Source: an uncultured SAR86 cluster bacterium
Lineage (GTDB): Bacteria > Pseudomonadota > Gammaproteobacteria > Magnimaribacterales > Magnimaribacteraceae
DNA: 64,000 nucleotides
Direction: 5' to 3'
Assembly: GCA_902606175.1 (NCBI GenBank)
Contig: CACLEZ010000009.1
Coordinates: 1-64,000, forward strand
In this document: piece after piece, positions 52,972 through 56,156 of the stretch
Position numbering within the stretch: the stretch's first letter is position 1
Layout of the letters: each line of letters opens with the position of its first letter
The notes under the pieces: model-generated
What the model saw: only the letters and a program-made list of their open reading frames with translations
Told to the model about the DNA's origin: nothing
Database searches by the model: none
Position numbers and translations under genes: made by a program

Positions 52972-53049
<78 letters not shown>

Positions 53050-54097: not shown

Positions 54098-54119
54098 TTA
54101 GGGGGCCTAAGCCCCCTAA
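54098..54119. terminator. Strong GC-rich hairpin between convergent genes
   Basis: A perfect 9-bp stem (TTAGGGGGC/GCCCCCTAA) with a CTAA loop. Read on the minus strand it is followed by ATTTTG, serving the 46-aa gene; it lies 29 bases past the plus-strand reductase stop and may act in both directions. Confidence 0.75.
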
Positions 54120-54123
54120 GTCC

Positions 54124-54264
54124 TTAAGGATAAAAGGGATTGTCAGTCACATAAGCAGGTAGATCAGAAGATCTTCTGCGAATATAAACTGGTTCTCCCA
54201 GTTGTCTCTTAAGGGATTTTTTGACTGCACGATTGATTATTCGCGCTTCTTCATATTTAGTCAT
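54124..54264 (-). CDS. 46-aa basic small protein, unknown family
   Basis: A short protein beginning MTKYEEARIINRAVKKSLKR and ending YVTDNPFYP. It is rich in Arg and Lys (helical N-half, then a basic RRR stretch) with a Pro/aromatic tail. No signal peptide or membrane segment. I choose this ATG because AGGAG lies 6-7 bases upstream; an in-frame ATG 14 codons earlier would fall inside the repeated leader. It stands as its own unit: perfect TATAAT about 170 bases upstream, a structured repeat leader, and a hairpin terminator immediately after the stop. I do not recognise the family. Nucleic-acid binding is a guess from charge. Confidence 0.6.
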   Translation of the reverse strand: MTKYEEARIINRAVKKSLKRQLGEPVYIRRRSSDLPAYVTDNPFYP

Positions 54265-54282
54265 AACATCTCCTGTTAAAAA

Positions 54283-54335
54283 GATGCGTTCCTTCGGCAT
54301 TATCACCTACTTCCGTCCCTTTCGGGATGAACGAA
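54283..54335 (-). repeat. Leader repeat unit, proximal copy
   Basis: A 53-base unit nearest the start codon. Shares CGGAAGTAG and CGAAGGAACGCATCTT with the distal copy; central hairpin has a CCC-GAAA-GGG stem with a GNRA-type tetraloop. Confidence 0.7.
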
Positions 54336-54399
54336 GATGCGTTCCTTCGTCACAATTGACTACTTCCGTTCACTGCTACATTTAGAGTGAATGAACGAA
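54336..54399 (-). repeat. Leader repeat unit, distal copy
   Basis: A 64-base unit directly abutting the proximal one. Same flanking blocks but a larger hairpin (TTCACT/AGTGAA, about 11-base loop). Its 3' block can also fold as CGAAG-GAACGCAT-CTTCG across the unit junction. Confidence 0.7.
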
Positions 54400-54432
54400 T
54401 GTTCATGTTAACAAACTTCTTCAAAAACGTAA

Positions 54433-54438
54433 ATTATA
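54433..54438 (-). promoter_or_regulatory. -10 element (TATAAT) of the 46-aa gene
   Basis: A consensus TATAAT on the minus strand, in the AT-rich gap between divergent genes. The best -35 candidate (TTACTT) is 18 bases upstream. Transcription would start near 54426 and produce the repeat-containing leader. The rest of the 54400-54581 gap holds no reading frame I can support. Confidence 0.5.
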
Positions 54439-54581
54439 GTGATTTATAGGGTAATCAAGTAATTTGTAATAGTTTGCACTTAAAAAAGTACATAGATTTG
54501 TTAAGCTTAGCCAGCAAAAAAACTTAACTATAAACATTTTAAATTTCTTTTAACTTCTCTCCTTTAGTTAACTAAACTAAG

Positions 54582-56156
54582 ATGAGAGTTAATAAATGCC
54601 TTCCAAAAAATCGTATGTTTAAAAAAATAACAGAAAGTTTTCTTATTTTCCTTTTCTCTTTGCAGACTTTTGCGGAAGTAAAAGAGTTAACTATTTTGCA
54701 TACAAATGATTTACACGCGCACCTTTTTCCAAGAATAGCACCTTGGATAAGTGAATCTAGAAAGATTGGTGGTTTCGCCAATTTAGCTACCTTAGTAAAA
54801 CAACAAAAGGCATCTAATCCTAATAATATTCTTATTGATGCTGGAGATTACTTCTCAGGTCCCTACATAAGCACTTTAACTAAAGGTGAGGCAGTGATTA
54901 AGTCGATGAACTTCTTGGGAATTGATGCAGCATGCATAGGTAATCATGAATTTGATCATGGATGGGATAATATGTTGGAACAAATCAAGAAAGCCAATTT
55001 TCCAATTCTGAATGGCAATCTTTTTTTTGAAGGAACTGATGATTTAGTTTGGGATAACCCTTATTTAATTCTGGAAAGAGCAGGATTAAAAATTGGAATT
55101 ATTGGTCTTCATGGAAAATTTGCTTTCTATGACACCATCAATTTTAAAATGACTGAAGGTATTGAAGCCAGAGATGAAGAAGAGTATCTGAGACAATATA
55201 TAAAAGAGTTAGAACCCATAACAGACATCATTATTCTTGCGGTACATCAAGGAATGCCCGGAAGACAATCTACTATTGGATTAACTGATGTCGAGAGAAA
55301 TCTTTATAAGGATATTCTTCTCGCTCAAAATGTTCCCGGTGTGGATATTATTGTTACTGGACATGCCCATCAGGGAACAGAAAAGGCTCTGGTTTCAAAT
55401 GGCACAATTATTGTTTCAACCAATGCAACTGCAACTGAACTTGGAAAGCTTCAAGTTATGTTTGATACTGAAAAAAAGAAAATAGTTTCTCATTCTAATG
55501 AACTCATAACTATTTATGATGATGAGCTAGAAGATGATGCAGATATGCTTCGTGAAATTACTTTCTGGCAAAAAGAAGTAGACCAGGTTGCAAAAGTACC
55601 AATTGTTTCCGCTACAAAAAAACTTGTAAGAGCATATGGAAAAGAATCCAACATGGGCAACTTATTCGCTGATGCCATAGAAGCTTTTGATCCTAGAATA
55701 GATATTGCCGTTATAAACAGTGGTGCTCTCAGACAAGACATAAAACCAGGAATAGTGACTAAAGGGGATTTAATTTCTGCATTTCCTTTTCCTAATACTG
55801 TTGTTATGACAAAATTAAAAGGCTCTCAAGTTGTAAAAATATTTAATCATGCTGCAGGTATGACAAATGGAATATTGCAAGTTTCAAAAAATGCCAAATA
55901 TTCATTTAGTCCTAGAAATAAGGCTCATGAAATTTGGATCAAAGGAAAGCCATTAAAAAATGATGATGAATATTGGGTAGCCGCTCCTAATTTTGTTACT
56001 CAGGGAGGAGACGGATATTGGGAATTTCAGAACTCGATTGAGTATATTGATACAGGAGTTTTGATAGTTGATGCTGCTGAGTATTTTCTTCAAGATATGG
56101 AAGTTTATGAACCCAAATATGAAGGAAGAGTCCTTGTTATCGATTCAGAAATTTAA
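54582..56156 (+). CDS. Periplasmic 5'-nucleotidase / UshA-like metallophosphatase
   Basis: A 524-aa exported enzyme: signal peptide (cleaved near FAEVKE, residue ~31), an N-terminal calcineurin-like domain and a C-terminal 5'-nucleotidase domain. Metal ligands appear in ILHTNDLHAHLFP, DAGDYFSG, GNHEFDHGWD, AVHQGMPG and GHAHQGTE; the C-terminal domain shows ESNMGNLFADA, AVINSGALR and GGDGYWEF. Likely releases phosphate and nucleosides from extracellular nucleotides. ATG 54615 is an alternative start, giving a shorter signal peptide. No Pho box was seen upstream. Confidence 0.88.
   Translation: MRVNKCLPKNRMFKKITESFLIFLFSLQTFAEVKELTILHTNDLHAHLFPRIAPWISESRKIGGFANLATLVKQQKASNPNNILIDAGDYFSGPYISTLTKGEAVIKSMNFLGIDAACIGNHEFDHGWDNMLEQIKKANFPILNGNLFFEGTDDLVWDNPYLILERAGLKIGIIGLHGKFAFYDTINFKMTEGIEARDEEEYLRQYIKELEPITDIIILAVHQGMPGRQSTIGLTDVERNLYKDILLAQNVPGVDIIVTGHAHQGTEKALVSNGTIIVSTNATATELGKLQVMFDTEKKKIVSHSNELITIYDDELEDDADMLREITFWQKEVDQVAKVPIVSATKKLVRAYGKESNMGNLFADAIEAFDPRIDIAVINSGALRQDIKPGIVTKGDLISAFPFPNTVVMTKLKGSQVVKIFNHAAGMTNGILQVSKNAKYSFSPRNKAHEIWIKGKPLKNDDEYWVAAPNFVTQGGDGYWEFQNSIEYIDTGVLIVDAAEYFLQDMEVYEPKYEGRVLVIDSEI

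Follow-up and report, generated by a model that had tools for sequence, protein, structure and literature searches.

A tandem type-1 glutamine riboswitch probably controls an unannotated small-protein family of SAR86 bacteria and marine viral contigs

Which RNA lies in front of a small, unrecognised gene of an uncultured SAR86 cluster bacterium, and what does it do to that gene? The locus belongs to the first 64,000 nucleotides of contig CACLEZ010000009.1 (assembly GCA_902606175.1), and this whole stretch is called the window here. From the letters alone, the initial annotation had described a perfect TATAAT, a leader of two tandem units, a Shine-Dalgarno, a 46-codon gene and a 9-bp terminator stem as one self-contained module under selection for RNA structure. 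It had suggested control by a CsrA/RsmA-like protein or, as the alternative, a new class of cis-acting RNA. All of these elements were located on the minus strand of the window.

54433..54438, minus strand: TATAAT hexamer, possible -10 element, read in the sequence
54336..54399, minus strand: glutamine riboswitch aptamer 1 (RF01739), 55.4 bits, E 1.8e-9, full length 1-53
54283..54335, minus strand: glutamine riboswitch aptamer 2 (RF01739), 60.5 bits, E 7.1e-11, full length 1-53
54266..54287, minus strand: expression-platform hairpin GCATCTTTT-TAAC-AGGAGATGT, aptamer 2 tail paired with the Shine-Dalgarno region, in the MFE and centroid folds, arms covarying over 90 leaders
54270..54274, minus strand: Shine-Dalgarno AGGAG, from the sequence
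54124..54264, minus strand: 46-aa gene MTKYEEARIINRAVKKSLKRQLGEPVYIRRRSSDLPAYVTDNPFYP with its ATG at 54264, an open reading frame with homologues in SAR86 and viral contigs and dN/dS ~0.2
54098..54119, minus strand: intrinsic terminator with a 9-bp stem, downstream of the 46-aa gene

The TATAAT at 54438-54433 is indeed perfect; a consensus scan found no -35 partner for it, and the hexamer reads TAAAAT in the near relative L174. The two aptamers abut exactly, together spanning 54399-54283 of the minus strand, and the ATG of the 46-aa gene stands about 22 nt past the aptamer core.

Both leader units are full-length matches to RF01739 (glnA RNA), scoring 55.4 and 60.5 bits where the gathering cut-off is 35. 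The E values of 1.8e-9 and 7.1e-11 come from a search of all 64 kb of the window with 4227 RNA families, and the match is far beyond chance. The blocks CGGAAGTAG and CGAAGGAACGCATCTT are common to both units, while the P2 and P3 hairpins vary in sequence and keep their pairing, as had been noticed from the letters. The repeat blocks flagged at that time, CGGAAGTAG and CGAAGGAACGCATC, are the conserved RF01739 core. Each unit combines the conserved core sequence with the P1-P2-P3 structure above the curated score, and the pair occupies a 5'-leader position with an expression platform (ATG at 22 nt, covarying tail/Shine-Dalgarno hairpin). From this membership we infer that the leader RNA binds glutamine. 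Selection on RNA structure, regulation in cis and the self-contained module are all borne out. The Rfam comparison that the initial annotation had proposed returned a known class, an outcome it had itself named as speaking against novelty, and a new class of cis-acting RNA is excluded because of this match.

The sequence, structure and leader position are all those of the type-1 glutamine riboswitch, and the aptamers show no difference from it. The glutamine-II riboswitch (RF01704, Downstream-peptide) also senses glutamine and precedes short ORFs (PMC6316151, PMC2864571); this leader is RF01739 instead. The RF01704 covariance model gave zero matches in 54100-54600 at E up to 0.5, and the glutamine-II class was rejected on that ground. 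Tandem arrangements of RF01739 are known, with 157 doublets and 4 triplets described (PMC9481103) and tandem glnA RNA copies reported earlier (PMC2864571). A 2018 review restricted RF01739 to cyanobacteria (PMC6316151). Compared with the known cases, the host SAR86 differs, and the controlled gene belongs to an unannotated small-protein family.

In the SAR86 order, searches, on which all our presence and absence calls rest, found RF01739 in 95 of 203 genomes, which belong to 13 of the 22 genera. Only four genomes had a match in a class-wide sample (n=369): three from SAR86 and one other small genome, whose aptamers stand ahead of what read as two glutamate synthase subunits. The SAR86 genes behind RF01739, identified by reading their translations except for DUF4278, which was assigned by profile search, include GSII-type and GSI-type glutamine synthetase, glutamate synthase and DUF4278-like YRG proteins. 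An outer-membrane protein, a TonB-type receptor, an ATP-grasp-like protein and several small basic protein families of 43-54 aa follow RF01739 as well. All 13 aligned YRG relatives matched DUF4278 at E up to 0.1 (best 4.9e-9). The leaders of the small basic proteins resemble that of the window, with aptamers in tandem and the ATG 20-23 nt past the aptamer core.

Other SAR86 families have small proteins of their own behind the same tandem leader (L221, L216, L219, L224, L225); those of family f3 are 52-54 aa long and end in FFPYYL, and f4 has a 43-aa protein. The window genome contains three RF01739 matches, namely the tandem pair and one further aptamer. The third aptamer (G000:C2:64666-64791, 43.3 bits in a permissive scan) has a P3 insertion of roughly 73 nt and precedes a 54-aa DUF4278-like protein with three YRG motifs (locus L003:1501-1852, G000:C2:64666-65017); relatives carrying this P3 insertion are present in further SAR86 genera (L247-L252). 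No RF01739 leader stands ahead of the GSII-type gene in the window genome. Glutamine synthetase leaders of SAR86 (L022, L031, L036, L038, L042 and similar ones) have a longer platform, with the ATG 78-88 nt past the aptamer, and feature a GUUAAAC/GUUUAAC hairpin and a CCUGCAG block. Regulation of the opposite sign is possibly at work in them.

How the RNA acts on the 46-aa gene was addressed by folding 90 distinct junctions of aptamer and ORF, taken from SAR86 and from viral contigs. In most of them the aptamer tail pairs with a segment overlapping the Shine-Dalgarno, and the pairing tail begins at, or adjacent to, the C after P1. The compensatory arm pairs are CAUCU/AGAUG, CAAUCU/AGAUUG, CACCU/GGGUG and CACUUU/GAAGUG. 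When arms were swapped among the 90 leaders, pairing with the own partner had a mean energy of -8.15 kcal/mol as against -5.93 +/- 0.17 for permuted partners, and 0 of 5000 permutations matched own-arm pairing. The outcome was unchanged when each of the 23 types of 5' arm was represented by a single leader, a reduction that corrects only in part for the kinship of these mutually related leaders. The window leader forms the tail/Shine-Dalgarno hairpin in both its MFE and centroid folds. A long-range pair between UAGUCA of aptamer 1 and UGACUA at the start codon, seen in the centroid fold, was rejected; it has no covariation support because the same AGUC arm occurs in leaders with a differently starting gene (L219).

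Since the aptamer tail pairs, with covariation, with the Shine-Dalgarno region, glutamine most likely turns translation on. Without glutamine, the aptamer 2 tail GCAUCUUUU would pair with the Shine-Dalgarno region AGGAGAUGU and block the ribosome. With glutamine bound, the tail would be held inside the aptamer and the ribosome site freed, and plentiful glutamine would switch on translation of the 46-aa protein. Aptamer 1 also ends in CAUCUU and might serve as a second blocker; because it shares this end with aptamer 2, both aptamers probably need filling, which would sharpen the response. The second blocker is found in SAR86 leaders and some viral leaders, and the phage leaders L076, L106 and L127 are without it. 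We modelled the accessibility of the site with the helices and tails of bound aptamers fixed as if ligand-bound, and the chance that the Shine-Dalgarno GAG is unpaired was 0.02 with none bound, 0.01 with aptamer 1, ~0.33 with aptamer 2 and 0.97 with both. The model hinges on ligand binding capturing the tail, because the Shine-Dalgarno stays closed when the aptamer tails are left free. A crystal structure shows a long-range G23-C60 pair that couples the C after P1 to ligand binding. Capture of the CAUC tail by the ligand would fit published work on the glutamine aptamer, in which G22 and G23 make long-range contacts when ligand is bound. The ON direction and the two-aptamer logic are inferred. 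We regard as probable the reading of the leader as a tandem type-1 (glnA) glutamine riboswitch with an ON mechanism for the 46-aa protein.

The opposite sign, a switch in which glutamine lowers the output of the 46-aa protein as would suit glnA and gltB, appears distinctly unlikely. SAR86 glutamine synthetase and glutamate synthase do carry the same aptamer and should be needed at low glutamine, but the platform of the glutamine synthetase leaders differs and is longer (ATG 78-88 nt away). The short platform has a single hairpin that is conserved and covaries; its Shine-Dalgarno blocker is the aptamer tail itself, and ligand capture of the tail would open the site. The studied relatives are also ON switches: PMC6316151 describes activation of expression by cyanobacterial type-1 and type-2 glutamine riboswitches, and the ON direction proposed here agrees with cyanobacterial gifB and PMM1846 as described there. 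The CsrA/RsmA-like control first suggested for this leader is less probable by far, and we give it hardly any weight. CsrA is encoded in the window genome and AGGAGA overlaps the ribosome site, but the repeated GGA motifs proved to be fixed parts of the conserved RF01739 aptamer. Moreover, no CsrA match was found in the listed f3 and f4 genomes, some of them >90% complete, and these families keep a tandem leader of the same kind with the CATCTTT...AGGAGATGTTATG region. As the f3 and f4 leaders persist without any CsrA match, CsrA is not the conserved partner, and the CsrA/RsmA reading was rejected.

What, then, is the protein whose translation glutamine would turn on? Homologues were found in 5 of the 35 genomes of a family-level search, and all five belong to one genus (19 genomes). 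A scan for a tandem-specific pattern in one genome per species (84,980 species) returned four matches, three in genomes of SAR86 cluster bacteria and one in an uncultured gammaproteobacterium; all four have the 46-aa gene or its start, with an identical protein in one. The invariant residues of the family include M-T-x-Y, P36, Y38, N42-P43 and Y45-P46. Within the genus dN/dS is ~0.2; such purifying selection makes it very likely that the gene is translated and has a use. Pfam, NCBIfam and PDB gave no convincing match, and homology to known families or solved structures was rejected. The initial annotation had called the gene unrecognised, and it does represent a family with no convincing match among profile libraries and solved structures. 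An AlphaFold2 model shows a helix at residues 3-22 and is weak (pTM 0.38). The 29-member alignment of the family did not match DUF4278 (PF14105). Only three viral homologues have a YRG motif ahead of LPxYITDNPFYP, where the SAR86 copies have VYIRRR or VYRTRR, and descent of the family from a YRG protein is possible. The small-protein family is thus new and unannotated, and the kind of RNA in front of it is already known.

The tandem leader is found in 26 distinct leader/gene combinations of the 46-aa family, 22 of them viral. A motif scan of IMG/VR returned 44 viral loci with relatives of the protein, mostly behind the same tandem leader, and some viral leaders match the SAR86 leader nearly base for base. 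The sampled viral contigs with these relatives encode RNR, portal and scaffold proteins, and one portal is closest to that of the marine myophage Melnitz. Glutamine riboswitches have been described in phages of streamlined marine bacteria and of cyanobacteria, including Melnitz, Mosig and cyanophages (PMC9004378; PMC9964418). These phages share the RNA family, whereas none of the isolate phages in the collection searched encodes the 46-aa protein; only Pelagibacter phage Mosig showed DNA-level likeness to the leader, over 36% of the query. Viral-contig glutamine aptamers (L051-L170) also precede YRG proteins and many unrelated short basic ORFs of 28-81 aa, among them families such as MNRFDHLH, MTLWxxYCR and MKTKNNWQL, and the tail/Shine-Dalgarno hairpin is common to most of these leaders.

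The chromosomal copy of the module is flanked by housekeeping genes. The order ilvC-pssA-tRNA-Ile-ADH-5'-nucleotidase is retained, whole or in part, across the genus; the module follows ADH in the window genome (G000) and G025, precedes it in G020, G031 and G034, and was not found next to ADH in G017, G021 and G030. A tRNA-Ile gene lies upstream of ADH at 52972-53046 of the window. Partial, degenerate tRNA-Ile-like copies adjoin the module in G031 and lie upstream of ADH in G030 (loci L306 and L309, G031/G030), and these copies hint at integration of the module at tRNA-Ile.

Among nitrogen regulators, GlnE was found in none of 202 SAR86 genomes in a search with an E. coli positive control. PII occurs in 164 of the 202 and is largely missing in family f4. 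The GlnD domain occurs in 117 of the 202; it was not found in the window genome, which is 81% complete, and is present in the other genomes of the genus. Such basic regulators differ strongly within SAR86, as most f4 genomes have no PII match and the listed f3 and f4 genomes no CsrA match.

Close parallels in control are cyanobacterial gifB/IF17 and PMM1846, in which a glutamine riboswitch stands ahead of a small DUF4278 protein. IF17 restrains cyanobacterial glutamine synthetase by binding it. The protein here is likewise small and basic, and SAR86 too has DUF4278-like YRG proteins behind RF01739. Unlike IF7 and IF17, however, the 46-aa protein has no DUF4278 match, either as a single protein or as the 29-member alignment. 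The gifB-type riboswitch in the 5' leader is thus a shared control element and not a sign of protein homology. The best guess for the 46-aa protein is that it acts as a small brake, restraining nitrogen assimilation by binding glutamine synthetase or PII. This guess, rather more likely wrong than right, comes from the riboswitch regulon and the lack of GlnE. Nothing ties the protein itself to either target, since no Pfam or NCBIfam profile matches its family and no PDB structure does so convincingly. About as likely is a phage-derived function unrelated to glutamine synthetase. The protein might be phage cargo for host takeover or anti-defence, for example, with glutamine only a cue and the SAR86 copy domesticated, a reading to which we grant a substantial chance that is still short of even. 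Relatives at 44 IMG/VR loci beside phage genes (RNR, portal, scaffold), the many unrelated small basic ORFs that viral contigs have after single glutamine aptamers, and the presence, absence or placement on either side of ADH within one SAR86 genus argue for cargo. Against it, the other SAR86 genes with a glutamine riboswitch are clearly nitrogen genes, and the chromosomal copy lies between housekeeping genes under purifying selection. The widest form of the brake reading is unlikely as a whole. In it, glutamine would gate a two-aptamer AND switch common to marine phages and SAR86, and the switch would release a small brake on nitrogen metabolism from a GS/PII inhibitor family without sequence relationship to IF7/IF17; the SAR86 order would lack adenylylation of glutamine synthetase and run much of its nitrogen assimilation via riboswitches.

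SAR86 is among the most abundant bacterial groups of the surface ocean (PMC11582366). In the literature searched, we found no paper joining SAR86 to glutamine riboswitches, and a 2024 paper on a SAR86 isolate is silent on riboswitches. The RNA class, its tandem copies and its occurrence in phages were already known; the link to SAR86 seems to be new, and the small-protein family is unannotated. Glutamine riboswitches once regarded as cyanobacterial form an order-wide nitrogen regulon in SAR86. The occurrence of both switch and small protein in marine viral contigs raises the question whether phages may read the glutamine level of the host as a cue for releasing the protein and so re-setting nitrogen metabolism.
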